Of a stretch of DNA of 61,644 nt, positions 2 to 48,502 are shown in pieces (position 1 is the stretch's first letter; each line of letters opens with the position of its first letter). Location of the stretch: NCBI GenBank assembly GCA_029567505.1, contig JAKPXO010000216.1, forward strand, positions 1-61,644, read 5' to 3'. Under the pieces are notes generated by a model that was not told the origin of the DNA, did not search any database, and saw only the letters and a program-made list of their open reading frames with translations. The position numbers and the translations under genes are program-made. This stretch comes from Acidobacteriota bacterium. GTDB taxonomy: Bacteria > Acidobacteriota > Thermoanaerobaculia > UBA5066.

Positions 2-451
2 GTCGAGAAGGTGGCTGCCTGCTACGACGTCGGGAAGGTCGTGAACCCGGCGCTCATCCGGGGCCAGACGTACGGCGGCATCGTCCAGGGGCTCGGCACC
101 GGGACGATGGAGGAGCTTCTCGTCGACACGAAGACGGGCCGCGCGACGAACGCCTCGCTCATGGACTACAAGATCCCGTCGACGGAGGACGTCCCGGCCG
201 AGATGGTCGTCGACTTCGTCGAGACGGCGCAGAAGGACGGTCCGATGGGCGCGCGGGGCATCGGCGAGCACACGATGATCCCGACGCCGGCGGCCATCGC
301 CAATGCTCTCTGGGACGCCTGCGGCGTGAGGATCTCCGAGATGCCGGTCACGGCGGAGAAGGTCTGGCGGGCGCTGAAGGCGAAGGAGCGGGCCGAGCGC
401 GGCGAGGGCGTCGCGGGCGAGGCTCCGGTCCCGGCGGGGACGATCGCGTGA
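2..451 (+). CDS. Xanthine dehydrogenase family protein, molybdopterin-binding subunit (C-terminal end only)
   Basis: This is the last 149 codons of a gene that begins before the window; the frame is open from base 2. The family uses a molybdenum cofactor to hydroxylate N-heterocycles or aldehydes, normally with FAD and 2Fe-2S partners in the cytoplasm. The fragment holds the C-terminal GARGIGE motif (around residue 88), whose Glu is the active-site base in this family, and the conserved VVNP-x-GQ-GG-GIxQGLG-type region at the front. The terminal TGA overlaps the GTG start of the DUF2877 gene, so the two are probably co-translated. The substrate cannot be told from this end; xanthine, uracil, nicotinate or hydantoin-like rings are all possible in this family. 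Confidence 0.85.
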   Translation, partial: VEKVAACYDVGKVVNPALIRGQTYGGIVQGLGTGTMEELLVDTKTGRATNASLMDYKIPSTEDVPAEMVVDFVETAQKDGPMGARGIGEHTMIPTPAAIANALWDACGVRISEMPVTAEKVWRALKAKERAERGEGVAGEAPVPAGTIA

Positions 452-1125
452 GGATCGAGGACCGCGGGTCGCTCCAGTCTCCCGCGACGGCGACGCCGCG
501 GCTTCCGCTCACCTGCCGCGACCTCGACCCGGTGCCGGGGCCGATCTCCCGGGCGACGCTCGTCCTCGACCTCTCCTCCGTCGGCGTCCCGGCCCGCACG
601 CGAGCGCTCCTCTCGGGCGAAGGGGGCGCTCCCGACTCCGTCGAGAGCCGCGTCTTTCGCTGGGCGCATGCCCGGATCGGGTCGCTCGTCGAGAAGCTCC
701 TCTCGGGCGAGCTCCGCGTCGCCGCCTACCGTCCCGACGCGGCCGGCCTGACCGGCCTCGGCCCCGGCCTGACCCCCACCGGCGACGACGTCCTCGTGGG
801 CCTCTCCGCGATGGCGCGCCGCCTCGCGGGAGGAGGCCTCGTCGAGATCCGTGCCGCCGTCGCCCTCTCCACGGTCCTCGCCGGGCTGCCGGCGGAGGAG
901 ACGACACCCGCGGCGCACCTCCTCCTCCGCGAGGCCTCCGAGGGACGCTTCCCGGCGGTCCTCGCGACGGTCGTCGAGCTGATCGGGAACCCTCACGCCG
1001 ACGCGGAGTCGCTCCGCACGGCCGGCGCGCGCCTCGCCGAGACGGGCGCGCACTCGGGGGCGGACCTCCTCGCCGGAGCGCTCGCCCTCGTCCAGGGCGT
1101 CGTCGACGCCAGGGAGAGCTCATGA
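448..1125 (+). CDS. DUF2877 protein, AllH/YlbF-like subunit of a putative carbamoyltransferase
   Basis: A 225-residue protein that starts at a GTG overlapping the upstream stop codon. The clearest signature is GLGPGLTPTGDD followed by a small hydrophobic helix (around residues 107-118), the hallmark of DUF2877. In E. coli the DUF2877 protein YlbF works with FdrA and YlbE as oxamate carbamoyltransferase (AllFGH) in allantoin degradation; the same two partners follow here in order, each overlapping by four bases. That supports a subunit role in a carbamoyl-transfer complex. The actual substrate is inferred, not shown. It is a little shorter than its E. coli relative. Confidence is high for the family and moderate for the function. 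Confidence 0.8.
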   Translation: MRIEDRGSLQSPATATPRLPLTCRDLDPVPGPISRATLVLDLSSVGVPARTRALLSGEGGAPDSVESRVFRWAHARIGSLVEKLLSGELRVAAYRPDAAGLTGLGPGLTPTGDDVLVGLSAMARRLAGGGLVEIRAAVALSTVLAGLPAEETTPAAHLLLREASEGRFPAVLATVVELIGNPHADAESLRTAGARLAETGAHSGADLLAGALALVQGVVDARESS

Positions 1126-2657
1126 CGACACGCATCCTCGTTCGACCGGGCTGCTACCACGACTCCGCGCGGCTCATGCAGGTGAGCCGCGAGCTCTCCG
1201 CGCTCCCCGGCATCCAGGAGGCGGTCGCGATGATGGGGACGGAGACGAACCGCCGTCTCCTCGCCGAGGCCGGCTTCCTCGGGACGGACGTCGACGCCGC
1301 GACGCCGATCGACATGATCGTCGGCCTGCGCGGCGGTCCTGACACCGCCGTCACGGCGGCCACGGCGGCGCTCGACCGGCTCCTTTCGGGGAGCGCGACG
1401 AGCGCCGGCGGGCCGGCGGCTCCGGAGCGGCCCGGGACGGTCTCCGAGGCGCTCGAGGCGCGCCCGGCGGCGAACCTCGTCTCCGTGGCCGTTCCCGGCC
1501 CGTACGCGGCCTTCGTCGCGCACCGCGCCCTCGACGCGGCTCGGAGCGTCTTCCTCTTCTCCGACAACGTCCCTCTCGCCGACGAGGTGGCGCTCAAGCG
1601 GCGTGCCGCCGCCCTCGGCCTCCTCGTCATGGGGCCCGACTGCGGCACGGCGATCCTCGCCGGGGTCGGGCTCGGCTTCGCGAACCGGGTGGAGCGCGGA
1701 CCGGTCGGGATCGTCGGCGCCTCGGGTACGGGAATCCAGGAGCTCTGCTCCCTCCTCGACCGGAGCGGCGTCGGCGTCTCGCACGCCATCGGCACCGGCA
1801 GCCGAGACCTCTCCGCCGGGGTCGGCGGCTTGATGACGGAGGCCGGGCTCGGTCTCCTCGCGAACGACCCGGCCACCCGCGCCCTCCTCCTGGTCGCCAA
1901 GCACCCGGACGCGGGCGTCGCGGAGCGCCTCCACGGTCTCCTCGCGACGCTCGGCAAGCCGGTCGCCGTCCGCTACCTCGGAGAGGGGCGGCGCGGCGAG
2001 GTGGACGGCGTCCTCTACGCGGGCTCGCTCGACGAGGCGGCCGAGGCAGCGGCCTCGCGCGTCGCGTCGACGCCGGCCGCCCGGGGCGACCTCGCGTTCG
2101 CCGCGCGCGAGGCGGTCGCGCCGGTAGGAGCGGGCGGGAGCCGGCTCGTCGGCCTCTTCGGCGGCGGCTCCCTCGCGGCCGAGGCGCGGTGCGTCCTCGA
2201 GGCGCGGGGGATCGCGACGCGCGTGCCGGAGGAGAAGCTCGCGGCGAACGCGCCGCTCCCGCCCGGGAACCTCGTCGTCGACACGGGGGACGACGCCTAC
2301 ACGGTCGGCCGGCCGCACCCGATGGTGGACCAGACCGTTCGCTGCGAGCTGATCCGCGCCGCGGGGTCGGACCCCTCCGTCGGCGTCCTGCTCCTCGACC
2401 TCGTCCTCGGCGACGGCGCGCACCCCGACCCGGCGCCCGAGATCGTCGAAGCCGTCGCCGCGGCGCGCGCCGCGCGGGGCTCCCGGCCTCTCTCCGTCGT
2501 CGCCTCCGTCTGCGGCACGCGCCGCGACCCGCAGGGGACGGCGCGGCAGGAGGAGACGCTCCGGCGGGCGGGAGTCGAGGTCGAGCCTTCCGCCGCCCGG
2601 GCGGCGGCGACGGCGGCGGACCTCGTCCTCTCCGTCCGGCAGGAGGTGGCCCGATGA
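1122..2657 (+). CDS. fdrA: FdrA family protein (AllF-like, acyl-CoA-synthetase-like carbamoyltransferase subunit)
   Basis: A 511-residue cytoplasmic protein starting at ATGA, overlapping DUF2877. The N-terminus has the FdrA pattern (Y-x-DS-x-LM-x-S-x-LS-x-LPG, then MGTETNRRLL around residues 38-47). A succinyl-CoA-ligase-like CoA/phosphate-binding fold follows, with GIVGASGTGIQE (around residues 196-207) and a GTGSRDLS segment. FdrA is reported as one subunit of the E. coli oxamate carbamoyltransferase, where the fold fits phosphate-ester or carbamoyl-phosphate chemistry. The gene overlaps the downstream YlbE-like gene by four bases, so 1:1 translation of subunits is likely. No carbamate kinase is in view, although the pathway would be expected to use one to make ATP from carbamoyl phosphate. 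Confidence 0.88.
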   Translation: MTTRILVRPGCYHDSARLMQVSRELSALPGIQEAVAMMGTETNRRLLAEAGFLGTDVDAATPIDMIVGLRGGPDTAVTAATAALDRLLSGSATSAGGPAAPERPGTVSEALEARPAANLVSVAVPGPYAAFVAHRALDAARSVFLFSDNVPLADEVALKRRAAALGLLVMGPDCGTAILAGVGLGFANRVERGPVGIVGASGTGIQELCSLLDRSGVGVSHAIGTGSRDLSAGVGGLMTEAGLGLLANDPATRALLLVAKHPDAGVAERLHGLLATLGKPVAVRYLGEGRRGEVDGVLYAGSLDEAAEAAASRVASTPAARGDLAFAAREAVAPVGAGGSRLVGLFGGGSLAAEARCVLEARGIATRVPEEKLAANAPLPPGNLVVDTGDDAYTVGRPHPMVDQTVRCELIRAAGSDPSVGVLLLDLVLGDGAHPDPAPEIVEAVAAARAARGSRPLSVVASVCGTRRDPQGTARQEETLRRAGVEVEPSAARAAATAADLVLSVRQEVAR

Positions 2658-4093
2658 GCGCGACGTCCCTTCTCGGCGGCCCGATCGAGGTCGTCCACGC
2701 CGGCATCGATGCCGTCGCCGAGGCGCCCCGCGCCGCCGGCGCGCCCGTCACGGTCGTCGACTTCCGGCCTCCCGCGGGGGGCGACACGCGCCGGATGGCG
2801 CTCCTGTCGGAGCTCCTCTCCGGCCCCGCCGCGCGCGAGATCGACGCCGCGAACGCCCGCGCCCTCGCCCGGCTCCTCGCGAGTCGCCCGCACCTCGTCG
2901 CGATCGGCGTCGCGCGCGACGTCGTCCCGGGGATGGCGGACGACCTCTTCCTCCACGCCGGCCCTCCCGTGACATGGGAGCGGATGTGCGGCCCGATGCG
3001 CGGCGCCGTGATCGGCGGCCTCCTCTACGAAGGGCGCGCGAAGGACGCGGACGAGGCGGAGCGTCTCGCGGCGAGCGGCGTCGTCCGCTTCGACCCGTGC
3101 CACCACCACGACGCCGTCGGCCCGATGGCCGGCCTCGTGACGCCGTCGATGCCCGTCTTCGTCATCGAGGACCGCGGTGGCGAGCGGCCCGGGACACGGA
3201 CCTTCTGCACGCTCAACGAGGGGCTCGGGAAGGTCCTCCGCTACGGCGCCTTCTCGGAGGAGGTCGTCGCGCGGCTCGTCTTCATGCGCGACGAGCTCGG
3301 GCCGGTCCTCGCCGAGGCGCTCGCGCTCCGCGGACCGATCGACCTGAAGCACCTGATGGCCCAGGCGCTCCAGATGGGGGACGAGGGGCACAACCGGAAC
3401 CGGGCGGGGACGTCGCTCCTCTTCCGCGAGCTCGCGCCGGCCGTCGTCCGCGCCACGGCGGATCGCGAGCGGGCCGCGCGGGTCCTCGACTTCGTGAACG
3501 GGAACGACCACTTCTTCTTGAACCTCTCGATGCCGATGGGGAAGTGCCTGCTGAAGGCGGCGGAAGGGGAGCCGCTCTCCTCGCTCGTCTCCGTCATGGC
3601 GCGGAACGGGACCGACTTCGGCATCCAGCTCGCCTCGATGCCGGGGCGGTGGTTCACCGGGCCGGCGCTGAACGTGCGCGGCCTCTACTTCCCCGGCCGG
3701 ACGGAAGCCGACGCGAACCCCGACATCGGCGACAGCGCGATCACCGAGACGGCCGGCTTCGGTGGCTTCGCGATGGCCGCGGCCCCCGCGATCGTCCAGT
3801 TCGTCGGCGGGAGCGCCGAGGACGCCCTGGCGGCGACCCGCGCGATGCGGCGGATCACGCTCGGGCCGAACCCCGGCTTCGCGATCCCCTCGCTCGGCTT
3901 CTCCGGCTCGCCGACCGGCATCGACCTTCGGCTCGCCCTGGAACGGAACCTCCTCCCGCAGATCAACACCGGCATCGCCCACAGGGAGCCCGGCGTCGGG
4001 CAGGTGGGGGCCGGCCTCGTCACCCCCCCGTGGGAGGCGTTCCACGCCGCCCTCGAGGCGTTCGCCGAACACGTCCGCGCCTCCCGCGCATAG
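2654..4093 (+). CDS. ylbE: DUF1116/YlbE family protein (AllG-like carbamoyltransferase subunit)
   Basis: 479 residues from the ATG in the ATGA overlap with fdrA; the frame stays open upstream, but this start matches the family N-terminus (LLGGPIEVVHAGI) and the coupling pattern. Recognisable DUF1116 blocks are the region around FDPCHHHDAVGPMAG (near residue 152), the segment MGDEGHNRNRAGTSLLFREL (near 240), and a C-terminal AFGGF-like glycine-rich stretch. E. coli YlbE pairs with FdrA and YlbF in oxamate carbamoyl transfer. The conserved His-rich and Asn/Arg-rich blocks probably form the catalytic site, but no mechanism can be read from sequence. It is somewhat longer than the E. coli protein. 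It is followed after 15 bases by the cyclase-family gene. Confidence 0.85.
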   Translation: MSATSLLGGPIEVVHAGIDAVAEAPRAAGAPVTVVDFRPPAGGDTRRMALLSELLSGPAAREIDAANARALARLLASRPHLVAIGVARDVVPGMADDLFLHAGPPVTWERMCGPMRGAVIGGLLYEGRAKDADEAERLAASGVVRFDPCHHHDAVGPMAGLVTPSMPVFVIEDRGGERPGTRTFCTLNEGLGKVLRYGAFSEEVVARLVFMRDELGPVLAEALALRGPIDLKHLMAQALQMGDEGHNRNRAGTSLLFRELAPAVVRATADRERAARVLDFVNGNDHFFLNLSMPMGKCLLKAAEGEPLSSLVSVMARNGTDFGIQLASMPGRWFTGPALNVRGLYFPGRTEADANPDIGDSAITETAGFGGFAMAAAPAIVQFVGGSAEDALAATRAMRRITLGPNPGFAIPSLGFSGSPTGIDLRLALERNLLPQINTGIAHREPGVGQVGAGLVTPPWEAFHAALEAFAEHVRASRA

Positions 4094-4108
4094 ACGAAGG
4101 AGCCCACC

Positions 4109-4984
4109 ATGCGTCCGATCGAGCTCTCGATCCCCCTCGGCATCGGCACCCCGGCCTGGCCCACGTACGAGCCGCTCCAGATGAAGTACTTCAAGCGGCT
4201 CGCCCCGAACGGCGCGAACGGCCAGCTCCTGACGCACTCGAATCACCTCGGGACGCACATGGACGGCGAGATCCACTTCTACTCGCCCGGCAAGGACATG
4301 GCGGCCCTCGAGCTCGACTTCCTGATGCACGAGGGGGCGATCGTCGACCTCTCCGACGCCGTGGGCGACTACGACGTCTACACGTCGAAGATGGTCGAGG
4401 AGCGGGTCGAGGTGAAGGACGGCGACATCCTGATCATCCACACCGGCTACCACCACTACGGCTGGGACCAGCCCGAGGCGGACGAGATCCGCTACATGGT
4501 CAAGCACCCCGGGCCCGACCGCGAGTTCGCGGAGTGGGCGCGGCGGAAGAAGCTCCGCTGGATCGGCGTCGACTGCGGGAGCGCGGACCACCCGATGAAC
4601 ACGATCATCCGGACCTGGATGCCGCGGCAGGCGAAGGAGGCGGACGCCCACTTCCGCGCGAAGTACGGGATGCCGCTCGACCAGTTCTACGACGACGGCA
4701 AGTACCAGCTCATGCACCTCGAGCTCTTCAACCACGGGATCATCCACGCCGAGTGCATGGGGGGCGACATCGACCTCCTCCTGAACCAGCGCGCCGTCAT
4801 CGGCGCCTTCCCGTGGCGCCTCGTCGACGGCGAGTCGTGCATCTGCCGTATCCTCGCCTTCGTCGACGACGACCGCCACGCGGCGCTCATGGCGAAGAAG
4901 GAGAAGGCCGCGAAGACGAAGTGGAACGACGTCGCCGGCGCTCCGAACGCCTGGCTCCACGAGGAGGCGCGGAAGAAGGCCTGA
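4109..4984 (+). CDS. Cyclase-family metal-dependent hydrolase (kynurenine formamidase/isatin hydrolase-like)
   Basis: A 291-residue cytoplasmic enzyme behind a GAAGGAG ribosome site. It has the cyclase-family metal motif H-L-G-T-H-M-D (around residues 46-52) and a downstream His in the same loop (E-I-H-F), which bind Mn or Zn in kynurenine formamidase and isatin hydrolase. These enzymes open amide bonds, often in rings. A second His/Asp-rich block (near residues 110-118, HTGYHHYGWD) and a late His-Glu pair (HAECMGGD) are typical of the family. Between a molybdenum hydroxylase and an amidase, ring opening of an oxidised N-heterocycle is the most likely role; this is inferred from context. Kynurenine formamidase itself is less likely, since no tryptophan-pathway gene is near. 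Confidence 0.82.
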   Translation: MRPIELSIPLGIGTPAWPTYEPLQMKYFKRLAPNGANGQLLTHSNHLGTHMDGEIHFYSPGKDMAALELDFLMHEGAIVDLSDAVGDYDVYTSKMVEERVEVKDGDILIIHTGYHHYGWDQPEADEIRYMVKHPGPDREFAEWARRKKLRWIGVDCGSADHPMNTIIRTWMPRQAKEADAHFRAKYGMPLDQFYDDGKYQLMHLELFNHGIIHAECMGGDIDLLLNQRAVIGAFPWRLVDGESCICRILAFVDDDRHAALMAKKEKAAKTKWNDVAGAPNAWLHEEARKKA

Positions 4985-5009
4985 GGCCGACGCCCGCGAC
5001 GCCACGGAG

Positions 5010-6473
5010 ATGACGGACCTCGCGTTCCGCCCCGCCACGGCCCTCCTCGGTGCGCTGGAGAGGAAGGAGACGTCGAGCGAGGAGCTCCTCCGCCTCTACC
5101 TGACTCGAATCGAGCGCCTCGGCTCGTTCCATGCCGTCGTCACCCTCGACACCGACCGGGCGCTCGCCGAGGCCCGGGCGTGCGACGCGGAGCGCGCGCG
5201 AGGCGAGCGGCGCGGACCGCTCCACGGCCTCCCGGTCACGGTGAAGGACTCTTTCGAGACGGCGGACCTCCGGACGACGTCCGGCGGGACGCCCGAGCTG
5301 ATGGCGCACGTGCCCGCGCGCGACGCGACGGTCGTGGCTCGGCTGAAGGCCGCCGGGGCGATCGTCTTCGGGAAGACGAACCTCTCGACCCAGGCGATGG
5401 ACATCCAGACGTACAACGCCGCGTTCGGGACGACGCCGAACCCGTGGGATGCCTCTCGGACGGCGGGCGGCTCCTCGGGCGGCTCGGCGGTGGCGATGTC
5501 CACGGGCCTCTCCGCGCTCGAGGTCGGGAGCGACCTCGGCGGCTCGATCCGGATCCCCTCGGCGTTCTGCGGCGTCTTTGGCCACCGGCCGAGCTACGGG
5601 ATCGTCCCGACGCGCGGGCACATCCCGGGACCTCCCGGCACGCTCGCCGCGCCCGACCTCGAGACCGCCGGCCCGATCGCGCGCTCGGCGGACGACCTCG
5701 ACCTCGCGCTCCGCCTCCTCGCCGGCCCGGACGAAGGCCACGCCGTCGCCTGGCGCCTCGAGCTCCCGCCGCCGCGGCGGCGCGGCCTCTCGGAGTACCG
5801 GCTCGCCGCCTGGCTGGACGACCCGGCGGCGCCCGTCGACACGGCGCTCCGGGAGCGGCTCGAGGCCGTCATCGGGGAGTTGCGCGCGGCGGGAGCGGAG
5901 GTCGACACGGAGGCGCGTCCCGGCTTCGCCCTCGCCGACAACGCGCGCCTCTTCATGCAGGTCCTCTACGGGAGCATGTCGGCCGGCTTGCCGGAGGGGC
6001 AGTTCGAGAAGATCCGCGCCCGCGCCGCCGCGCTCGCCCCGGAAGACGACTCCTTCCGCGCGCGCCTCGCGCGCGACACGGCGCAGACCCACCGCGAGTT
6101 CGACCTCGCGCGCGAGGAGCGCGAGCGGCGGCGCGCCCGCTGGGCGGAGCTCTTCGAACGGTACGACGCGCTCCTCTGCCCGGTCTTCCCGACGCCCGCC
6201 TTCCCGCACGACCAGAGCCCCGACTTCGCCCGCCGGACGCTCGCCGTCAACGGCGCGCACGTGCCCTACCTCGGGACGCTCCTCGGCTGGCCGGCGCTCT
6301 CCGGCCTCGCCTCGCTCCCGGGGACGTCGGCCCCCGTCGGTTTCACGCGCGAGGGCCTGCCGGCCGGGATCCAGGTCGTCGGGCCGTACCTCGAGGACCG
6401 GACCGCGATCCACGTCGCGAAGCTCGTCGCGGAGGTGGCGGGGGGCTGCGTCGTCCCGCCGGGCGTGGAGTAG
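5010..6473 (+). CDS. Amidase signature family hydrolase
   Basis: A 487-residue amidase-signature enzyme. It shows the full Ser-cisSer-Lys layout: Lys in PVTVKDSF (around residue 76), the glycine/serine-rich GGSSGGSAVAMSTG (around 151-164), and the nucleophile region GSDLGGSIRIPS (around 172-183). Length and overall pattern match stand-alone amidases rather than GatA, and no gatB/gatC is nearby. It ends the plus-strand operon (25 bases after the cyclase gene) and converges on the methyltransferase remnant. It probably hydrolyses a linear amide or ureide made by the upstream enzymes. The substrate is unknown; amidase-family enzymes act on ureido acids, allophanate and many aryl or alkyl amides. 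Confidence 0.88.
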   Translation: MTDLAFRPATALLGALERKETSSEELLRLYLTRIERLGSFHAVVTLDTDRALAEARACDAERARGERRGPLHGLPVTVKDSFETADLRTTSGGTPELMAHVPARDATVVARLKAAGAIVFGKTNLSTQAMDIQTYNAAFGTTPNPWDASRTAGGSSGGSAVAMSTGLSALEVGSDLGGSIRIPSAFCGVFGHRPSYGIVPTRGHIPGPPGTLAAPDLETAGPIARSADDLDLALRLLAGPDEGHAVAWRLELPPPRRRGLSEYRLAAWLDDPAAPVDTALRERLEAVIGELRAAGAEVDTEARPGFALADNARLFMQVLYGSMSAGLPEGQFEKIRARAAALAPEDDSFRARLARDTAQTHREFDLAREERERRRARWAELFERYDALLCPVFPTPAFPHDQSPDFARRTLAVNGAHVPYLGTLLGWPALSGLASLPGTSAPVGFTREGLPAGIQVVGPYLEDRTAIHVAKLVAEVAGGCVVPPGVE

Positions 6474-6503: not shown

Positions 6504-7481
6504 TCACGGCGCAGCGACGTACTCGACGAAGAACTGCTCCGTCAGGAAGTCGTGGACCTTCCTCGGGACGAGGCCGGCCTCGGCCATCGAAGCGTCGACC
6601 TCCTCCCGCGACATCCACTGCGACGGGGGCGGTCCCCAGGGTCGCTCCTCCACGCTCTTCGGGACGAAGTCGACGACGACGACCCGCCCGCCGGGCGCGA
6701 GGCCGGCACGGACCTTTCGGAGCCACGCGGCGCGGTCCTTCACGTAGTGGAGCGTGTCGACGATGAGGACCGTGTCGAGGCCCCCGGCCGGCAGCTACGG
6801 GTCGTCCTTCGGCACGAGGAGCGTCCGTGCGTTCGTCAGGCCCGCCTGCTTCAGCCGTCCGTCGAGGTAGGCGAGGAGGTCGGCGTTCGCGTCGACGGCG
6901 AGGACGCTCCCCGACGGGCCGACGGCGCGCGCGAGCCGAAGCGTGAAGCAGCCCGATCCGGCCCCGACGTCGGCGATCCGTTCGCCGGGCTTCAGGGCGA
7001 GAGCGCGCATCACCTCGTCGGGCTTCTGGTCGGCGTCCCGCTCCTTCCGCTCGAGGAGCCAGAGGTAGCCCTTCAGCCTGACCGCCTTCGCGAGCGCCTG
7101 GAAGCGGGCGTCGTCCACGAGCGCGGCGAACGCCCCGTCCTTCCGGAGGGCGGAGGCGTCGAAGAGGCCTGCTCCGTGGGCCCGCTCGAGGGCGTCGAGA
7201 GCCTCCGTCCGCTGCCCGAGGAAGGCGCGGACCCGGGCGACCCGGTAGAGGGCTTCGGCAAAGGCCTGGCCGGCGCCCTCGGCGGCCTCCTCGGCGAGCG
7301 GGAGGGCGCGGCTCCACTCCTTTGCGGCGAGAGCGGATTCGAGGGGCGTCGGCGGGGCGGGCGCCGCGGGCGAGGTCCCGTCGGCGCGGGCCGCGGCAGA
7401 CGAGGCGAGGAGCGCGAGGACGAGCGCCGCAACAGGGCGTGACGGTCGGGACGGACGGAGACGTACCTCCTTCGCCGCCAT
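6504..7481 (-). pseudogene. Secreted TPR-methyltransferase gene interrupted by an in-frame TAG stop
   Basis: A reading frame of 326 codons with one internal stop (TAG on the minus strand, bases 6797-6795). Before the stop, residues 1-33 look like a signal peptide, followed by TPR-like helices and a class I SAM methyltransferase core (motif I near IADVGAGSGCFTLRLA). After the stop, the same frame continues without any shift through LPAGGLDTVLIVDTLHYV and the rest of the methyltransferase fold to 6504. One base change (for example from CAG or AAG) would restore the gene. It may be a recent nonsense mutation or a sequence error; the conserved downstream half argues against long decay. An exported SAM methyltransferase is itself odd, since SAM is cytoplasmic. 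A TTG- or GTG-started second half (for example GTG at 6743) could be made separately. Confidence 0.8.
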
Positions 7482-7582: not shown

Positions 7583-9148
7583 CTACGGCGCGAGCCGCAG
7601 TCCCGCCCCCGGCCCGACCGGAAGGTCGAGCGCGATCCAGCCCATCAGGATGAGGCTCCAGGAGACGAGGAAGACGAGCGTGTAGGGAAGCATCGTCGCG
7701 ATGAGCGTCCCGAGGCCCGCCTTCGCGTCGTAGCGCTGGACCGTCGCGAGGATGAGGGCGAAGTAGGACATCGTCGGCGAGATGACGTTCGTGACGCTGT
7801 CGCCGACGCGGTAAGCCGCCTGCGTCAGCTCGGGCGTGTAGCCGAGGAGCATCAGCATCGGGACGAAGACGGGCGCCATGACGGCCCACTTCGCCGAGGC
7901 GCTCCCCATCAGGAGGTTCACGCCCGCCGAGAGGACGACGAACCCGAGCATCAGCGGGATGCCGCCGAGGCCGGTCGCCTGGAGGAGCTCGGCCCCCTTC
8001 ACGGCGCCGATGAGGCCGAGGTGCGACCAGTTGAACCAGGCGACGAACTGCGCGGCGAAGAAGACGAGGACCATGTAGGAGCCGAGCGTTTCCATCGACT
8101 TCGACATCGCCCTCACGACGGCGGCGTCGTTCTTCATCGTGCCGGCGCCGGCTCCGTAGGCGATGCCCGAGAGCGCCCCGCCGAGGAAGATGAACGGGAC
8201 GATCGCCGTCAGGAGCGGCGAGTGGAGGACGCCGCCGGTCTTCAGGTCGCGCAGGAACCCGCCTTCGGGAACGACGCCCCAGAGGACGACGGCGGCGAAG
8301 AGCGCGAGGACGACGATCGCGTTGCGGAGCCCCTTCTTCTCGGCGGCGTCGAGGGGACGGAGCTCCCCGTCGGCCTTCTCGGTTCCGGCGTAGGCGCCGA
8401 GGCGCGGGACGACGAGCTTCTCGGTGACCCACGTCCCGGCGGCGGCGATGAGGAACGTGGAGACGGCGAGGAAGTAGTAGTTCGCGGCGGGGCTGACGAC
8501 GTAGGAGGGGTCGACGATGTGCGCCGCCTCCTGCGTGAGGCCGGCGAGGAGCGGGTCGATCGTCCCGAGGACGAGGTTCGCGCTGTAGCCGCCGGAGACG
8601 CCGGCGAACGCGGCGGCGAGGCCGGCGAGCGGGTGCCGCCCGGCCGCGAGGAAGATCACGGCCGCGAGCGGGATCAGGAGGACGTATCCGACCTCGCTCG
8701 CGGCGTTCGAGAGGATCCCGGCGAAGACGACGACGAACGTCAGGAGCTTCCGGGGCGCGGAAAGGACGAGGAGGCGGAGGAGCGTTCCGATGAGGCCGCT
8801 CCCCTCCGCGACGCCGATCCCGAGGAGCGCGACGAGGACGGTGCCGAGCGGCGCGAAGCTCGTGAAGTTCGAGACGGCCTTCTCGAGGACGAGGTGGAGG
8901 CCCTCGACCGACAGGAGGTTGACGACCGTGATCGCCTTGCCCGTTCCCGGGTGGACGGCGCTGAGCCCCGCCCAGGAGCCGATCGCCGAGGCGCCGAGGA
9001 CGGCGAGCGCGAGGAGGAGGAAGATCGTCGCGGGGTGGGGGAGCGCGTTCCCGGCTCTCTCCACGATCCCGAGCATCCGGGAGAAGAGGTCCCCCCGGAC
9101 GGCGTCCGGCTTCGCCGCGGCGCGGCCCCGCTCGTTCTTCGGCCCCAC
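7583..9148 (-). CDS. AbgT family transporter
   Basis: A 521-residue polytopic membrane protein of the AbgT family (p-aminobenzoyl-glutamate importers and, in some members, sulfonamide exporters). The N-terminus [21 protein letters not shown] is diagnostic. The family cores [20 protein letters not shown] (around residues 148-167) and a second inverted-repeat half, ending in [12 protein letters not shown] near residue 455, are present. About a dozen hydrophobic segments span the protein. It starts at GTG after GGAGAGGTGAC. The minus-strand neighbours are an M28 protease upstream and the broken methyltransferase downstream; a peptidase beside an AbgT transporter fits uptake of an acyl- or aryl-amino acid or dipeptide, but the cargo is not known. 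Confidence 0.9.
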
Positions 9149-41250: not shown

Positions 41251-42033
41251 ATGAGCATCGAAACGGGACTCGCCGGACGGTCCGTCGTCGTCACAGGGGC
41301 GGCCGCCGGGATCGGAAAGGCGACGGCCCTGCGATTCGCGAAAGAGGGGGCGAAGGTCGCGGCGTGGGACGTCGCGGACGCCGCCGCGCTCGCCGACGAG
41401 CTGAAGGCCGCGGGCGCCGCCGACGCGTTCACGGCGAAGGTGAACGTCGCCGACGCCGCCTCGGTGGAGGCGGCGGTCGCGGACGTCGTCGCGAGGTGGG
41501 GGCGGATCGACGTCCTCGTCAACAACGCCGGGATCGTCCGGGACGCCCAGCTCGTCAAGTACAAGGACGGGGCCGTGCTGGCGACGATGACGGACGAGCA
41601 GTGGGACGCGGTCATCGGCGTGAACCTGAAGGGTGTCTTCCTCTGCACCCGCGCGGTGACGCCGCACATGATCGCGGCCGGGGGCGGCGTCGTCCTGAAC
41701 GCCTCCTCCGTCGTCGGCCTCTACGGCAACTTCGGCCAGACGAACTACGTCGCCACGAAGGCCGGCGTCGTCGGGATGACGAAGACCTGGGCACGCGAGC
41801 TCGGGAGGTTCCGGATCCGCGTCAACACCGTCTGCCCCGGGTTCGTCGCCACCGAGATCCTGAAGGCGATGCCGCAGAAGGTGCTCGACGGAATGGTCGC
41901 CCACACGCCGATCGGCCGGATGGGGGAGCCCGACGACATCGCGAACGCCTACGTCTGGCTCGCCTCCGACCAGGCGACCTTCGTCCACGGCGCCGTCCTC
42001 TCGGTCGACGGCGGCCTCGTGACGGGGACGTAG
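41251..42033 (+). CDS. Short-chain dehydrogenase/reductase (FabG-like)
   Basis: 260 residues from ATG 41251 with a GGGAGGT site eight bases upstream. The cofactor site is TGAAAGIGKAT (about 16-26), NNAG is near residue 91, catalytic Ser in NASSVVG (near 151) and the YxxxK pair in TNYVATK (near 168). The wording is that of 3-oxoacyl-ACP/CoA reductases or 3-hydroxyacyl-CoA dehydrogenases. It is the first gene of the plus-strand cluster; two bases separate it from the KAS III-like gene. Probably reduces or oxidises a hydroxy/keto group on the cluster's substrate. Confidence 0.88.
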   Translation: MSIETGLAGRSVVVTGAAAGIGKATALRFAKEGAKVAAWDVADAAALADELKAAGAADAFTAKVNVADAASVEAAVADVVARWGRIDVLVNNAGIVRDAQLVKYKDGAVLATMTDEQWDAVIGVNLKGVFLCTRAVTPHMIAAGGGVVLNASSVVGLYGNFGQTNYVATKAGVVGMTKTWARELGRFRIRVNTVCPGFVATEILKAMPQKVLDGMVAHTPIGRMGEPDDIANAYVWLASDQATFVHGAVLSVDGGLVTGT

Positions 42034-42035
42034 CG

Positions 42036-43025
42036 ATGCCCCGCGTCGCGCGCATCGTCTCGACGGCCCGGTACCTCCCGCCGATCGAGGTCCCGAACGA
42101 GGTCCTGAAGCCGCGCTGGCCCCAGTTCCCCGACTTCGTCGACAAGATGGAGGCCTCGAGCGGAATCCGGACCCGCTTCTACGCCCCCGAGGACCAGGCG
42201 ACGTCCGACGTCGCCCTCCCGGCCGCGAAGCTCGCCCTCGAGCGGGCCGGCCTGACGCCGCTCGACCTCGACCTCATCATTCTCGGCACCGACTCGCCCG
42301 ACTACGTCACCCCCGCGACCTCGGTCGTCCTCCAGGGGAAGCTCGGCGCGAAGAACGCCGGGACCTTCGACGTCGGCTGCGCTTGCGCGTCGTTCCCGAC
42401 CGGGATCGCCGTCGGCTCGGGCCTCATCGCCGCGAACCCGGCGCTGAAGAACGTCCTCGTCCTGGGCGTCTACCTCATGCACAAGCTCGCCGACCCGAAC
42501 GACCCCATGGTCTTCTTCTACGGTGACGGCGCCGGCGCCGCGGTCCTGCAAGGGGGCGACGAGCCCGGCTTCCTGAACTCCGCGATGCAGGCGGGCGGGG
42601 AGTACGCGCAGTGCTGGGGCATCTTCGCGGGCGGCACCGCCGAGCCGGCGACCGTCGAGGCCGTGCAGGCCGGCCGGACGACGGTGAAAATGGTCGAGAA
42701 GTATCCCGCCGAGATCAACCACGAGGGGTGGCCGCGCCTCGTGAGGCGCCTGTCCGCGGAGGGAGGGTTCGCCCTCTCCGAGATCGACCAGCTCATCTTC
42801 ACGCAGGTGCGAAAGCCTTCCATCGAGCTCGTCATGAACGACCTCGGGCTTCCGGTCGAGAAGGCCCACACGATCATGGAGAAGTGGGGCTACACCGGAT
42901 CGGCCTGCATCCCGATGGCGCTCGACGACGCGATCGAGCAGGGGAAGGTGAAGAAGGGGGACCTCGTCGTCATGATCGGCTCCGGCGTGGGGTACAACCA
43001 GGCCGGCGTCGCGATCCGGATGTGA
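42036..43025 (+). CDS. KAS III (FabH)-like enzyme lacking the usual catalytic His and Asn
   Basis: 329 residues, thiolase fold. The nucleophile region reads DVGCACASFPTGI, so the Cys aligned with the FabH catalytic Cys is Cys117, with a second Cys at 115. Alignment by eye places Thr256 (in LIFTQVRK) where FabH has His in PHQAN, and Tyr286 (in KWGYTGSA) where FabH has Asn in GNTSAA. Both are essential for decarboxylating condensation, so ordinary KAS III chemistry is unlikely. A Cys-only acyl-transferase, thioesterase-like or C-C/C-O bond-forming role is possible. It sits between an SDR and an alpha/beta hydrolase. Family membership is clear; reaction is not. Confidence 0.8.
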   Translation: MPRVARIVSTARYLPPIEVPNEVLKPRWPQFPDFVDKMEASSGIRTRFYAPEDQATSDVALPAAKLALERAGLTPLDLDLIILGTDSPDYVTPATSVVLQGKLGAKNAGTFDVGCACASFPTGIAVGSGLIAANPALKNVLVLGVYLMHKLADPNDPMVFFYGDGAGAAVLQGGDEPGFLNSAMQAGGEYAQCWGIFAGGTAEPATVEAVQAGRTTVKMVEKYPAEINHEGWPRLVRRLSAEGGFALSEIDQLIFTQVRKPSIELVMNDLGLPVEKAHTIMEKWGYTGSACIPMALDDAIEQGKVKKGDLVVMIGSGVGYNQAGVAIRM

Positions 43026-43059
43026 CCCGGAGCCGCAGCCGCGGCGCGGAGGTGAGATC

Positions 43060-44004
43060 GTGAACCGACCCATGAAGCTCCTCCTCGCTGCGGCCGCTCT
43101 CCTCGTCCTCGCGGCGATCGTCTTCATCCTCTGGGCGCGGCTGCGGCCCCTCGCGGCGTACGCCGCGGCGGGGCGTCGCGCGCTCGCGAAGGCGGGTCTC
43201 GAGACGGCCCGCGTCCCGTCGCCCGCGGGCGAGCAGACGTACTTCCGCGGCGGGAGCGGCCCGGTCGTCGTCCTCCTCCACGGCGCGGGCGACCAGGCCT
43301 CCGCCTGGTCTCTCGTCGCCCCGAAGCTCCTTCCCGGACGGACGCTCGTCGTCCCCGACCTCGCGGGTCACGGCGCGAGCGCGCCGGAGAAGGGCGCGAT
43401 CTCGGTGCCGATGCTCCTCTCCGGCCTCTCGGCCGTCCTCGACGCGGCGGCTCCCGGCGGGAAGGTGACGATCGTCGGCAACTCCCTCGGCGCCTGGCTC
43501 GCCTGCCTCTGGGCGAAGGAGCACCCCGAGCGCGTCGAGCGCCTCGTCCTCGTCAACGGCGGCCCGCTGAAGCACGCGGCGGAGGGGATCACGCTCCTCC
43601 CGAAGGACCGGGCCGAGGCTCGGGCCGCCGTCGAGAAGCTCCGCGACCCGGGCTCGATCCGCGTCCCCGACTTCGTCCTCGACGACGTCGTGAGGCAGGC
43701 GGCGACGGGCCCCCTCGCGCGGCTCGCGGCGACGAGCGGCGCGATGGAGCCGCACGTCCTCGACGGGAAGCTGGGAGGACTCGACGTGCCGGTCGACCTC
43801 CTCTGGGGCGCTTCCGACCAGCTCCTGCCGCTCTCCTACGCGGAGAGGATGCGCGTCGAGCTGCCGCGCGCCCGCGTGACCGAGCTGCCGCGGTGCGGGC
43901 ACGTCCCGCAGCAGGAGTGCCCGGCCGCCTTCGCGGCCGCCCTCGGGAAGCTCCTCGACGGTCCGCCGCCGGAGAGGGCCGCGGCCACGCCGGAGGTCCC
44001 GTGA
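43060..44004 (+). CDS. Membrane-anchored alpha/beta hydrolase
   Basis: 314 residues from a GTG with a GGAGGTGAG site. One N-terminal membrane helix (about 6-27) anchors the enzyme, probably facing the periplasm. The catalytic domain has HGAGDQASAW (about 75-84), nucleophile elbow GNSLGAW (Ser near 144), Asp in WGASDQLLP (near 250) and His in RCGHVPQQE (near 280). It is probably an esterase or lactonase, perhaps acting on the ligand brought in by the receptor. The stop overlaps the GTG of the CoA ligase. Confidence 0.83.
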   Translation: MNRPMKLLLAAAALLVLAAIVFILWARLRPLAAYAAAGRRALAKAGLETARVPSPAGEQTYFRGGSGPVVVLLHGAGDQASAWSLVAPKLLPGRTLVVPDLAGHGASAPEKGAISVPMLLSGLSAVLDAAAPGGKVTIVGNSLGAWLACLWAKEHPERVERLVLVNGGPLKHAAEGITLLPKDRAEARAAVEKLRDPGSIRVPDFVLDDVVRQAATGPLARLAATSGAMEPHVLDGKLGGLDVPVDLLWGASDQLLPLSYAERMRVELPRARVTELPRCGHVPQQECPAAFAAALGKLLDGPPPERAAATPEVP

Positions 44005-45542
44005 TCCACGCCGACGTCCTCGGCGAGCGAGCGCGCCTCTCGCCGGAGAAGTGCGCCCTCGTCTTCGTCCCGACGGGGGAGCGGTTCACGTACCGCGAGC
44101 TGGACGCCCGCGCGACACGGGTCGCGGCGTTCCTCCGCGACGGGCTGGGCCTGATGAAGGGGGACCGAGTCGCCCTTCTCGCCCACAATCGGGTCGAGTA
44201 CGTCGACCTCTTCTTCGCCGCGGCGAAGGCGGGGCTCGTCCTCGTCCCGCTCGGGACGCGCATGACGCCGCACGAGCTCGCCTTCATCGTGCGGAACGCC
44301 GACGTCTCGGCGCTCGTCTACGGGGGCGAGTTCGCCGAGACCGTCGCAGCGCTCCGCGCCGAGGCGGCGGTGCCGCGGAGGATCGCCCTCGACGCGCCCT
44401 CCGCGGAGGGAGACCTGTCGCTCGCGGCGGAGCTCGCCGCGCTCCCCGAGGCGCCCTTCGTGCGGACGCGCTGCGGCGGCGAGGACCTCCACCTCCTCCT
44501 CTACACGAGCGGCACGACGGGCAAGCCCAAGGGGGTCATGGTCCCGCACCGGATGACGTCCTGGAACGCCTGGAACACGGCCCTCTGCTGGGGGCTGACG
44601 GAGCACGACGTCAGCCCGGTCTTCACGCCGCTCTACCACGCGGGCGGGCTCGGCGCGTTCCTCCTCCCGGTCCTCGCGGCGGGAGGGACCGTCGTCCTCC
44701 ACGCGGGCTTCGAAGCGGCGGAGGTCTGGGCCACCGTGACGAGGGAGCGCTGCACCGTCGTCCTCGGCGTCCCGACGATCTGGAAGCTGCTCCTCGAGCA
44801 CCCGTCGTTCGAGCGGGCCGACCTCTCCTCGATCCGCTGGCTCATCAGCGGCGGCGCGCCGCTCCCGCTCTACCTCATCGAGGCCTACCAGGCGCGCGGC
44901 ATCGTCTTCAAGCAGGGGTACGGCCTGACCGAGGTCGGCGTGAACTGCTTCGCGATGTCGGTCGAGGAGTCGGTCGCGAAGAAGGGGTCGATCGGGAGGC
45001 CGCTCATGATGACCGACGCGAAGCTCGTCGACGAGTCGGGCGCCGAGGTGACGGCCGGCGAGGTGGGGGAGCTCTGCCTCCGCGGGCCGCACGTCTCGAG
45101 GGGCTACTGGATGAACCCCGCGGCGACGGCCGCCGCCCTCGACGACGAGGGCTTCTTCCACACGGGCGACCTCGCCCGAAAGGACGCCGACGGCTTCTTC
45201 ACGATCGCGGGGCGCCGGAAGGACATGCTCATCTCCGGCGGCGTGAACGTCTACCCGGCCGAGATCGAGGGGGAGCTCCTCCTCCACCCGACCGTCATGG
45301 ACGCCGCGGTCGTCGGCGTTCCCGACCCGACGTGGGGCGAGGTCGGCGTCGCCTTCGTCGTCCTCCGCCCGTGCGAGAGTGCCACGAAGGCCGAGCTCCT
45401 CGCCTTCGCCGAGTCGCGCCTCGCCCGCTACAAGCTCCCGAAGGACGTCGTCTTCGTCGAGGCGCTCCCGCGGACGGCCTACGGGAAGGTCGTCAAAGGG
45501 GAGCTCCGCGACGCATACCTCGCGGGCCGGGGCGCCGCGTGA
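44001..45542 (+). CDS. Acyl-CoA synthetase (AMP-forming, fatty-acid/aryl CoA ligase type)
   Basis: 513 residues from GTG, overlapping the previous stop as GTGA. The AMP-binding motif is YTSGTTGKPKGVMV (about 171-184), the second GYGLTEVG (about 310-317), the A8 linker TGDLARKDADGF (about 393-404) and the C-terminal catalytic Lys in PRTAYGKVVKGEL (about 493-505). It activates a carboxylic acid to its CoA thioester using ATP. The pocket residues do not let me choose between medium/long-chain fatty acids, aryl or terpenoid acids. With a thiolase and an SDR alongside, breakdown through a CoA pathway is likely. Confidence 0.9.
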   Translation: MIHADVLGERARLSPEKCALVFVPTGERFTYRELDARATRVAAFLRDGLGLMKGDRVALLAHNRVEYVDLFFAAAKAGLVLVPLGTRMTPHELAFIVRNADVSALVYGGEFAETVAALRAEAAVPRRIALDAPSAEGDLSLAAELAALPEAPFVRTRCGGEDLHLLLYTSGTTGKPKGVMVPHRMTSWNAWNTALCWGLTEHDVSPVFTPLYHAGGLGAFLLPVLAAGGTVVLHAGFEAAEVWATVTRERCTVVLGVPTIWKLLLEHPSFERADLSSIRWLISGGAPLPLYLIEAYQARGIVFKQGYGLTEVGVNCFAMSVEESVAKKGSIGRPLMMTDAKLVDESGAEVTAGEVGELCLRGPHVSRGYWMNPAATAAALDDEGFFHTGDLARKDADGFFTIAGRRKDMLISGGVNVYPAEIEGELLLHPTVMDAAVVGVPDPTWGEVGVAFVVLRPCESATKAELLAFAESRLARYKLPKDVVFVEALPRTAYGKVVKGELRDAYLAGRGAA

Positions 45543-46384
45543 GCTCCACCGCTCTCCTCGCGCACCAGGTCGACGGGGAGGGCGAGCCGCTCCTCCTCCT
45601 GAACGGCGGGATGATGAGCTTCACGGCGTGGGACGCCTACGTCCCGCCTCTCGCGGCGAAGCACCGGGTCATCCGGTGCGACCTGCGCGGGATGCTCCGC
45701 TCGCCGGGCGCCCGTCCCGAAGGTTTCCCCGGCCACGCGGAAGACCTCCTCGCCCTTCTCGACCACCTCGGAGTCTCGAGCGCCCACGTCGCGGGGACGA
45801 GCTACGGCGCCTTCGCTGGCCTCCACCTCGCCGCCCTTGCCCCGGACCGAGTCGCCTCCCTCGTCGCGATGACCGTCGCCGACCGCGTGTCGGCCGAGAT
45901 GTGGGCCGAGGCGGAACGGATGGCCGTCGCCTGCCGGGAGGCGCTCGCGGGGGGCTCGCGAGAGAAGGTCTACGACCTCGTCTCGGCCTTCGCCTTCTCG
46001 GAGGAATGGGCCGAGGCGCACGCGGAGGAGATCGCGGCCCGCCGCGCCGCGGTTTCCTTCCTGCCCGACTCCTGGTTCTCCGGGCTGGCCTCGCTCCTCT
46101 CGGCGCTCGAGGGGCTCGACGCGAGGCCGCTCCTCCCGCGCGTGACCTGCCCCGTCCTCGTCCTCCTCGCGGTGGGAGACCGCGCGATGCCGCGCCCCTG
46201 GGGCGAGTCGCTCGTGGCGGCCCTGCCGCGCGGGGAGCTCGCCGTCGTCCCCGGCTGCGGTCACGGCCTCGTCGTCGAGAAGCCCCGCGAGACGCTCGCC
46301 CATCTCCTCGCCTTCCTCGCCCGGCACCCGCTCCCGGTCGAGGCCCCGACCCGCCAGCCCGAGCGGAACGGAGGAACGCCGTGA
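45539..46384 (+). CDS. Alpha/beta hydrolase
   Basis: 281 residues, starting at GTG in a GTGA overlap with the CoA ligase. The fold opens LLLLNGGMMSFTAWD (about 18-32); the nucleophile elbow is GTSYGAFAG (Ser near 92), with Asp in AVGDRAMP (near 219) and His in GCGHGLV (near 243). It resembles the third hydrolase in this cluster in order and in the NGG/NGL-x-AW opening, so the two may be duplicates with different targets. No signal peptide; cytoplasmic. Substrate unknown; a CoA-thioester, ester or C-C-bond hydrolase is possible. Confidence 0.82.
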   Translation: MSSTALLAHQVDGEGEPLLLLNGGMMSFTAWDAYVPPLAAKHRVIRCDLRGMLRSPGARPEGFPGHAEDLLALLDHLGVSSAHVAGTSYGAFAGLHLAALAPDRVASLVAMTVADRVSAEMWAEAERMAVACREALAGGSREKVYDLVSAFAFSEEWAEAHAEEIAARRAAVSFLPDSWFSGLASLLSALEGLDARPLLPRVTCPVLVLLAVGDRAMPRPWGESLVAALPRGELAVVPGCGHGLVVEKPRETLAHLLAFLARHPLPVEAPTRQPERNGGTP

Positions 46385-47586
46385 AGCCGATCTACATCGC
46401 CGCCTACCAGCAGTCGAAGTTCGGGAAGCTCCTCGGCGCGACCGTGCCCGAGATCATCCGGACGGCCGCCGAGGAGACGTGCCGCTCCGTGAAGGCCGAA
46501 GCGTCCGCCGTGGACGTCGCCACGATCGGCGCCGTCTGCAACCTGACGCTCAACGAGCAGGGGCTCCTCTCCGGGCTCCTCGCGATGACGCCCGGCCTCG
46601 ACGGCAAGCCGATCGAAAGCGTCGAGAACGCCTGCGCCACGGGCGGGCAGGCGATCCTCGCTGTCGCGCAGAAGCTGATGCTCGGCGACGGCGACGTCGG
46701 CCTCGCCGTCGGCTTCGAGAAGATGCGCGACGCCGACGGGAAGATGGACGGCAAGCTCGTCGGGAAGGTCCTCGGCCTCTACTCGCACCCCGACGAGCGC
46801 CCCGGAAAGACGTTCGTCTTCCCGCACCTCTTCGCCGAGGTGATGAAGGCCTACATGGACGAGTGGGGCGCGACCGAGGAGGACCTCGCCACGATCGCCG
46901 TCACGGAGTACGAGAACGCCCGGAAGAACCCGTTCGCGCAGATGCAGAAGAACGAGGTGACCCTCGAGACGGCGATGAAGATCGAGGGGATCAACCGCTA
47001 CGTCGTCGAGGGGCTCCCACTCAAGACCTACGACGCCTCGCAGATCTCCGACGGCTGGGCCGGGATGCTCCTCGCGACGGAGGACGGGCTCGCGAGGCTC
47101 GGCGTCGCGAAGGCCGACTGCGTCCGCCTTGCGGGCTGGGGCCAGGCGACCGACCCGCTGAAGAAGGAGGGGCGCGACGTCCTCCGTCCGAAGGCGGCGA
47201 ACGCCGCGATGGCCGCGGCCTACCGGCGCGCCGGGCTGACGCCGTCGGACGTGAACGTCGCCGAGGTCCACGACTGCTTCAGCGTCATGGGCGCGATCGG
47301 CGCCGAGGTGATCGGCAAGGCCGAGCCGGGCAAGGGCGCCCGCTACTGGAGCGAGGGGAAGGCGCGCGTCGCGGGGGAGTGCGGCATCAACACCTCCGGA
47401 GGCCTCATCGCCAAGGGGCACCCGATCGGCGCCACCGGCATCGCGATGGTCGGCTGGTGCGCCTGGCAGCTCCTCGGGAAGGTGCCGAAGGAGCTCCAGG
47501 TCGCGAACGCGCGCGCGGCGGCGACCTTCAACATCGGCGGGCCGGTCTGCGCGTCGGTCTGCACGGTACTCACCCCGGCCTCCTGA
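46381..47586 (+). CDS. SCPx-type thiolase
   Basis: 401 residues starting at GTG in a GTGA overlap with the hydrolase. The nucleophile is Cys in ESVENACATGGQA (near residue 86). A His in EVHDCFSVMGA (near 300) and another in AKGHPIGATGIAM (near 347) complete the visible site. The typical second Cys (CxGGG) of classical thiolases is replaced by FNIGG near residue 384, as in SCPx-like enzymes. Such thiolases often need a DUF35 OB-fold partner encoded next to them, and none is present here. It most likely cleaves or forms a 3-ketoacyl-CoA. Confidence 0.88.
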   Translation: MKPIYIAAYQQSKFGKLLGATVPEIIRTAAEETCRSVKAEASAVDVATIGAVCNLTLNEQGLLSGLLAMTPGLDGKPIESVENACATGGQAILAVAQKLMLGDGDVGLAVGFEKMRDADGKMDGKLVGKVLGLYSHPDERPGKTFVFPHLFAEVMKAYMDEWGATEEDLATIAVTEYENARKNPFAQMQKNEVTLETAMKIEGINRYVVEGLPLKTYDASQISDGWAGMLLATEDGLARLGVAKADCVRLAGWGQATDPLKKEGRDVLRPKAANAAMAAAYRRAGLTPSDVNVAEVHDCFSVMGAIGAEVIGKAEPGKGARYWSEGKARVAGECGINTSGGLIAKGHPIGATGIAMVGWCAWQLLGKVPKELQVANARAAATFNIGGPVCASVCTVLTPAS

Positions 47587-47644
47587 CGGAGCCGGGAGGG
47601 CTGACCCCGGCGGCCGGACGCGGCCGGGAGTGCGGGAGGACCCG

Positions 47645-48502
47645 ATGGGCGAGATCGTCCCCGACCGGGAGGGGTTCCTCGAGGTCGGCGGTCACCGGAT
47701 CCGGTGGGAGTTCGTCGGCAAGGGCGACAAGGAGACCGTCTGCCTCCTCAACGGCCTCGCGATGCACACCCGCGCCTGGTACGGGGTCCTCCCGCGCCTC
47801 CTCGACGCGTACGACGTCGTCCTCTACGACTACCTCGGCCAGGGGCAGTCCTCGGCTCCCGACGAACCGTACTCGATCCCGGAGTCCGCCGGGTACCTCC
47901 CGCGGGTGCTCGACGCCCTCGGGATCGAGAAGGCCCACGCGGTCGGCGTCTCGTACGGCGGCTTCGTCGCGGCCGAGGCCGCGCGCCTCTTCCCCGAGCG
48001 GCTCCACACGCTGACGCTCTCGGGGATCCTCCTCTCGCACGAGGAGCTCTTCTCGATGTACCAGGAGATCTCCCTCCGCTTCTACCGCGGCGGGCCGGAG
48101 GTCTTCGAGCTCTACACGCACTACATGTATGAGAAGATCTTCGGCGAGGCGTTCGTCGCCGCCATGAAGGAGAGCCTCCCGGCGCTCCGCGGCCGGTTCC
48201 ACGACCGGTACCGGGGCCAGACGCACGCGCTCATCCGCCTCACGCGCGCGCAGGACCCGTTCTTCGCGGCGCTCGACGGGAACCTCGCGGGCTACGCGGC
48301 GTTCCCGGAACCGGTCCTCGTCGTGCCGGGCGCCGAGGACCGGACGATCCCGCCGTGGGTCCAGCGGAAGCTCCTCTCCGTCTTCCGCGACGCGCGTTGG
48401 GAGCCGATCGAGGGCTCCGGCCACGTCGTCTACCTCGAGAAGCCCGACGCCTTCTTCGGCGTTCTCCGGCGGTTCCTCGCGGCGAAGTCGACGTCGTACT
48501 GA
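47645..48502 (+). CDS. Alpha/beta hydrolase
   Basis: 285 residues from ATG 47645, five bases after GGGAGGA; an upstream GTG would bury this site. The fold opens CLLNGLAMHTRAWY (about 33-46), nucleophile elbow GVSYGGFVAAE (Ser near 104), Asp in GAEDRTIPP (near 236) and His in GSGHVVYLEKP (near 263). It is related in layout to the hydrolase at 45539-46384. It is the last plus-strand gene of the cluster, 58 bases after the thiolase. Likely cytoplasmic; substrate unknown. Confidence 0.82.
   Translation: MGEIVPDREGFLEVGGHRIRWEFVGKGDKETVCLLNGLAMHTRAWYGVLPRLLDAYDVVLYDYLGQGQSSAPDEPYSIPESAGYLPRVLDALGIEKAHAVGVSYGGFVAAEAARLFPERLHTLTLSGILLSHEELFSMYQEISLRFYRGGPEVFELYTHYMYEKIFGEAFVAAMKESLPALRGRFHDRYRGQTHALIRLTRAQDPFFAALDGNLAGYAAFPEPVLVVPGAEDRTIPPWVQRKLLSVFRDARWEPIEGSGHVVYLEKPDAFFGVLRRFLAAKSTSY

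Follow-up and report, generated by a model that had tools for sequence, protein, structure and literature searches.

The operon at the start of the Acidobacteriota contig analyzed here (the window, a stretch of 61,644 nucleotides) probably encodes an energy-conserving, oxidative breakdown of uracil by way of barbiturate, a reading to which we assign a probability of about 0.7 from sequence comparison. In the proposed pathway, a UraA-type permease would import uracil, and a three-subunit molybdenum hydroxylase, the proposed uracil dehydrogenase, would oxidize it at C6 to barbiturate. A PF04199 cyclase-family hydrolase would serve as the barbiturate ring opener and yield ureidomalonate, which an AllFGH-type complex would cleave phosphorolytically to malonamate and carbamoyl phosphate. 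Because ureidomalonate has one CH2 more than oxalurate, this step would copy the known oxalurate reaction. An amidase, the proposed malonamate amidase, would then convert malonamate to malonate and ammonia, and a carbamate kinase from another locus of the genome would use carbamoyl phosphate and ADP to form ATP, CO2, and ammonia. Firm observations are the genes present and their order and conservation, the metal ligands, the type of permease, and, in relatives, genes of the malonate- or malonyl-CoA-decarboxylase type. The reactions and substrates that we infer from them are well constrained.

Using Pfam and NCBIfam profile models with their cut-offs, we assigned the six open reading frames between positions 2 and 6473, all of which lie on the forward strand (Table 1). 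The initial annotation had described six genes in a row on one strand, the first four joined by four-base overlaps, and both points and the positions hold: each reading frame has a family match above the cut-off, and the overlaps read GTGA at 448 to 451, ATGA at 1122 to 1125, and ATGA at 2654 to 2657. AllF, AllG, and AllH are thereby three contiguous genes, each above its family-model cut-off. The amidase carries a GGSSGG motif at residue 153.

Table 1. Genes of the operon in the window and on contig C506 (L036) of the same assembly
Feature	Position	Strand	Profile match, bits (cut-off)
Mo-hydroxylase Mo-binding subunit, C-terminal 149 residues	Window 2..451	+	MoCoBD_2 78.7 (27)
AllH (DUF2877), 225 aa	Window 448..1125	+	PF11392 55.9 (25)
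AllF (FdrA), 511 aa	Window 1122..2657	+	NF004760 446 (433); Ligase_CoA 81.9 (24.5)
AllG (YlbE, DUF1116), 479 aa	Window 2654..4093	+	PF06545 310 (27)
PF04199 cyclase-family metal hydrolase, 291 aa	Window 4109..4984	+	Cyclase 105 (23)
Amidase-signature hydrolase, 487 aa	Window 5010..6473	+	PF01425 319 (27); NF004816 558 (503)
Rest of Mo-subunit gene	C506 1-1906	-	
FeS subunit	C506 1903-2430	-	
FAD subunit	C506 2442-3281	-	
Uracil permease, divergent	C506 3540-4835	+	

Contig C27 of a 532-contig assembly (G000) begins with the window, so the operon is cut at this contig edge, where the Mo-subunit reading frame (2 to 451) is open. A search of the same assembly with the Mo-subunit family returned a gene that runs off the end of contig C506. 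This gene covers residues 1 to 636 of a subunit that has 790 to 797 residues in relatives, the window part begins at residue 645, and about eight codons are absent between the two contigs. We looked for an exact sequence overlap between C506 and C27 and found none; the join rests on homology, in that one unbroken gene fragment in a genome of the same genus (L042) aligns with both pieces, at 92% and 88% identity. The arrangement is continuous in three further genomes of the family (L010, L040, and L041), with the Mo and AllH frames of L041 merged by the gene caller. The FAD and iron-sulfur subunits that the initial annotation had expected upstream are both on C506, and the hydroxylase set (FAD, FeS, and Mo subunits) is complete. 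The carbamate kinase that it had sought in the same place is not in the operon; the carbamate kinase genes of this genome are on C364 and C479.

To survey the cluster in other genomes, we scanned genome contigs with an AllG alignment and took the best 80 of 520 confirmed loci, mostly from metagenome-assembled genomes (MAGs). Because these loci were picked by likeness to the window AllG, the counts describe that AllG subfamily. Among the best 80 of 520, which bear some fifteen or more phylum-level names, the combination of AllFGH, cyclase, and Mo hydroxylase is repeated, and the closest AllG relatives with named records include Acidobacteria and Thermoanaerobaculia MAGs. In 64 of the 74 of these loci that could be judged, AllG is followed 3' by a cyclase at a distance of no more than three genes, and the order of the window, with FdrA, YlbE, and DUF2877 relatives next to a cyclase and an amidase, recurs in L010, L040, and L041; for both reasons, the gene order is not a product of chance. 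When at least 7 kb was available on both sides (36 of the best 80 of 520), the three hydroxylase subunits were on the AllG strand in 26 loci, and a UraA-type permease was present in 16. In a sample of 396 genomes of the phylum, cyclases at least 87% identical to that of the window occur only in its own genome, G176, and G349, all three of which carry the operon; other cyclases are at most 46% identical. In the gut bacterium Anaerotruncus massiliensis AT3, genes for the hydroxylase, permease, CoA-transferase, amidase, AllFGH, and cyclase lie together.

The end of the cluster varies, and the amidase is missing from it in some relatives (L011 and L043). Among the best 80 of 520 loci, which are not independent and many of which are cut, an amidase occurs in 16, a nitrilase-family hydrolase in 9, and a GNAT-like protein in 16, with no co-occurrence; these look like alternative endings of one pathway. 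We dropped a malonyl-decarboxylase role for the GNAT-like protein because its model has a GNAT fold and is nearest to N-acetyltransferases.

Two further observations concern the neighborhood of AllG. The GNAT-fold protein, of about 230 amino acids, adjoins a thiolase and a DUF35-type zinc-ribbon protein (L052, L060, L061, L068, L074, L083, L088, L091, L093, L095, L104, L117, and L121), and the one copy tested matched no Pfam or NCBIfam model. AllG also occurs in another kind of cluster (51 to 55% identity), with AllF or an amidase, in L012, L013, L014, L016 (G015), and L017 (G326); the L016 and L017 clusters add another Mo hydroxylase, a CoxG-like gene, and an acyl-CoA-ligase-like gene. This second type may represent a related pathway for another base.

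The N-heterocycle had been proposed to be a pyrimidine, hydantoin, or purine derivative. Of the three, a pyrimidine is favored, most likely uracil via barbiturate, on the basis of the uracil permease and of malonate-decarboxylating genes in relatives. The permease on C506 shares 65% identity with E. coli UraA and scores 650 bits with the curated uracil-permease model NF007995 (cut-off 477). UraA also serves plain uracil salvage. For this cluster type, each of the 21 linked permeases is closest to a pyrimidine carrier, either UraA (19) or RutG (2), and the A. massiliensis permease is nearest to RutG, which in E. coli is annotated as a general pyrimidine symporter. A 22nd permease, from the different cluster type of L016, is nearest to the urate carrier UacT.

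The carbon product was approached through the genes that accompany the cluster in relatives. In a Bacillota MAG (L087), a run encoding FAD, FeS, and Mo subunits, an NCS2 permease, PucR, an AllH-like protein, AllF, AllG, and the cyclase continues on the same strand with genes for an M42 peptidase, a Na+-pump subunit, a biotin carrier, and a complete malonate decarboxylase, with MdcA at 887 bits (cut-off 789), the acyl carrier at 94 (84), the beta subunit at 339 (228), and the gamma subunit at 271 (237). The operons of two other loci (L105 and L106) include genes for a Na+-pump subunit, a biotin carrier, and a carboxyltransferase of the mmdA-like type. As the mmdA-like sequences score below the cut-off of that family, the acid in those loci may instead be oxaloacetate, methylmalonyl, or another one. 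A family III CoA-transferase and an amidase occur together in 12 of the best 80 of 520 loci, and the single CoA-transferase compared is nearest to dicarboxylate CoA-transferases and also related to oxalate CoA-transferases. Malonamidase E2 in the PDB, which acts on malonyl amides, is a remote relative of the window amidase within the amidase family. The malonate-decarboxylase-type genes and the CoA-transferase and amidase fit malonate as the product and thus barbiturate as the substrate of ring opening. The alpha subunit of malonate decarboxylase (MdcA) was convincing in only 2 of 47 genomes searched and was absent from the window's own genome in that search, so the fate of malonate may differ elsewhere, this genome included.

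With thymine, or else a modified or substituted pyrimidine, as the starting compound, the same architecture could instead lead to methylmalonate-type products. The mmdA-like carboxyltransferases of L105, L106, and L109, which belong to the methylmalonyl-CoA decarboxylase family, and the RutG-like carriers at some loci would suit such a start, but the decarboxylase of L087 is malonate specific and the permease of this genome is closest to the uracil carrier. We therefore consider a thymine-type substrate unlikely.

For the opening of the barbiturate ring, we examined the cyclase. Its AlphaFold2 model (mean pLDDT of 92; 45 sequences) matched kynurenine formamidase and isatin hydrolase in the PDB, and isatin hydrolase, which opens a cyclic amide, provides a precedent for this fold. 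Residues H46, H50, D52, H56, H203, and E215 are invariant in all 45 sequences. H46, H50, D52, H203, and E215, together with H56, match, at nearly the same spacing, the KynB metal ligands His50, His54, Asp56, His161, and Glu173 and its catalytic His60 (PMC4243253), and by this comparison the predicted binuclear metal site of the cyclase is complete. The AtzD-type barbiturase (PF09663) was found in none of the 47 genomes by a search that finds the pADP-1 copy at 8.6e-149. Separately, three genomes contain two adjoining PF04199 matches that are 42 to 46% identical to the window cyclase and lie away from AllG (G015:C86, G368:C25, and G386:C12).

The carbamoyl transfer step was compared with that of E. 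coli, in which AllFGH interconverts oxalurate plus phosphate and oxamate plus carbamoyl phosphate (PMC11326118). In the aligned parts, the window proteins are 42% (AllF, over 507 aa), 45% (AllG, over 415 aa), and 31% (AllH, over 126 aa) identical to their E. coli counterparts. One histidine column of AllF is invariant over 70 sequences, and we considered for this subunit a phosphohistidine mechanism as in succinyl-CoA synthetase. Carbamate kinase is present in 46 of the 47 genomes and above the strict cut-off in 42, versus 2 of 14 control genomes, and only L068 and L081 have it within the cluster. AllD was over its cut-off in 0 of the 47 genomes, with none at all in the window's own genome, in a search whose E. 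coli positive control works. The earlier proposal that an AllFGH-type carbamoyltransferase is coupled here to oxidation and hydrolysis of an N-heterocycle is largely supported, with carbamoyl phosphate as the likely product; the AllD result agrees with its view that the classical allantoin pathway is not simply copied.

AllG also bears on the subunit boundaries. There is a weak match (E value of 0.016) between its residues 11 to 54 and residues 511 to 554 of E. coli AllF, at the C terminus of the latter, and the AllG start of about 60 residues (2654 to 2850) is a separate small open reading frame in L081, L090, L093, L099, and L109. This suggests that a small domain moves between the AllF and AllG subunits, being the end of AllF in E. 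coli and joined to AllG in the window.

Two other readings concern this step. In the first, the complex would be an ordinary oxamate carbamoyltransferase supplied with oxalurate that the hydroxylase and cyclase would make from a five-membered ring (e.g., parabanate) or that would come from allantoin, with the amidase and CoA-transferase handling oxamate and oxalate. That the characterized AllFGH uses oxalurate and oxamate (PMC11326118) and that the linked CoA-transferase has oxalate CoA-transferases among its relatives agree with this. However, AllD was over the cut-off in none of the 47 genomes, the linked permeases are of the pyrimidine rather than the allantoin type, L087 has a malonate decarboxylase, and E. 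coli AllG deviates at 25 of the 128 AllG columns that are nearly invariant, although the selection of the loci would also be expected to produce such differences; an oxalurate route is accordingly quite improbable. In the second, the chemistry would run as proposed to ureidomalonate, and the trio or the amidase would then act hydrolytically, releasing urea or ammonia without carbamoyl phosphate. The classical route does yield urea and malonate (PMC3758960), and carbamate kinase is usually outside the cluster, but the characterized homologue is phosphorolytic (PMC11326118) and carbamate kinase is encoded in nearly all genomes with the cluster. Hydrolytic release is, in our estimate, just as improbable.

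The Mo hydroxylase itself bears on whether the substrate is a purine. The catalytic glutamate is kept in all 40 readable linked Mo subunits. In xanthine dehydrogenase (bovine numbering), Glu802 binds the substrate; the Arg880 equivalent is kept in 41 of 41 linked Mo subunits, and the Glu802 equivalent is alanine in 41 of 41, a weak test of xanthine dehydrogenase identity because E. coli XdhA itself has glutamine there. A route in which the hydroxylase acts on hypoxanthine or xanthine and the remaining enzymes degrade a purine-derived ureide is very unlikely: PucR-type regulators in 12 loci and SsnA-like genes in two (best 80 of 520) and a ygeX/ssnA/carbamate kinase/XDH-like set on C479 of this genome would favor it, but the permeases linked to this type of cluster are not purine-type carriers, the Glu802 position argues, weakly, the other way, and the C479 set is a separate locus. 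That set (G000:C479; L037, 1 to 7736) comprises a contig-edge gene, an SsnA-like gene, carbamate kinase (346 to 403 bits), a YgeX-like gene, an XDH-like fused subunit, and an XdhC-like gene, and it resembles the E. coli reductive uric acid cluster.

Elsewhere in the window, an AbgT-family transporter (7583 to 9148, reverse strand; PF03806, 650 bits) is convergent with the operon and adjoins a methyltransferase-like gene (6504 to 7481, reverse strand) that is in two pieces (6795 to 7481 and 6504 to 6743), possibly through a frameshift or sequencing error. A forward-strand run at 41251 to 48502, judged by eye from first residues, has dehydrogenase, ketoacyl-synthase-like, AMP-ligase, hydrolase, and thiolase-like genes and is perhaps a lipid or hydrocarbon pathway.

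If oxidative uracil breakdown is the correct reading, the role of AllFGH extends beyond allantoin use, the cyclase linked to AllG represents a novel type of barbiturase, and many uncultured bacteria, as well as A. massiliensis AT3, could use uracil as an energy source, with the cell gaining ATP where the textbook oxidative route only yields urea. We give about even odds to the broader proposal of an anaerobic uracil fermentation across many phyla, in which a new-family barbiturase and a ureidomalonate-specific carbamoyltransferase would lead to ATP and, in some bacteria, malonate decarboxylation would add a Na+ gradient. A literature search that covered few subscription papers found no description of this cluster; a paper on a floodplain nitrifier places allFGHK beside biuret genes, a context different from that of the window.

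Several known systems share parts of the proposed pathway. Like E. coli oxamic transcarbamylase, AllFGH, which is accompanied by AllK (PMC11326118) and has three homologous subunits, the window trio would be expected to phosphorolyze an N-carbamoyl amide acid to carbamoyl phosphate; in contrast to the E. coli all operon, the window operon is without AllD or a kinase and is linked to the hydroxylase, cyclase, and amidase. In the reductive uric acid pathway (PMC12507026), the YgeW/YqeA step likewise serves ATP formation through carbamoyl phosphate, which is released by phosphorolysis of a ureido group, as proposed here, but the enzyme family is unrelated (PMC11326118), the substrate is a purine, and the pathway is reductive rather than oxidative. 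The Rut and reductive (Pyd) uracil pathways would share the starting compound, whereas the gene content of the operon bears no resemblance to theirs (the E. coli rut operon was compared). Kynurenine formamidase and isatin hydrolase, also of PF04199, have the fold and binuclear metal ligands of the window cyclase in common with it, yet the cyclase is only 13 to 21% identical to them in the fold comparison, is longer (291 aa), and has a fixed association with AllG. The oxidative pyrimidine pathway of Rhodococcus and others, which is reported to be rare, uses uracil dehydrogenase, barbiturase, and ureidomalonase, and in it the ureido group is lost in the form of urea (PMC3758960). Barbiturate, ureidomalonate, and malonate would be the same in both, but in the proposed pathway a PF04199 cyclase would replace barbiturase, phosphorolysis and an amidase would replace ureidomalonase, and carbamoyl phosphate would replace urea.
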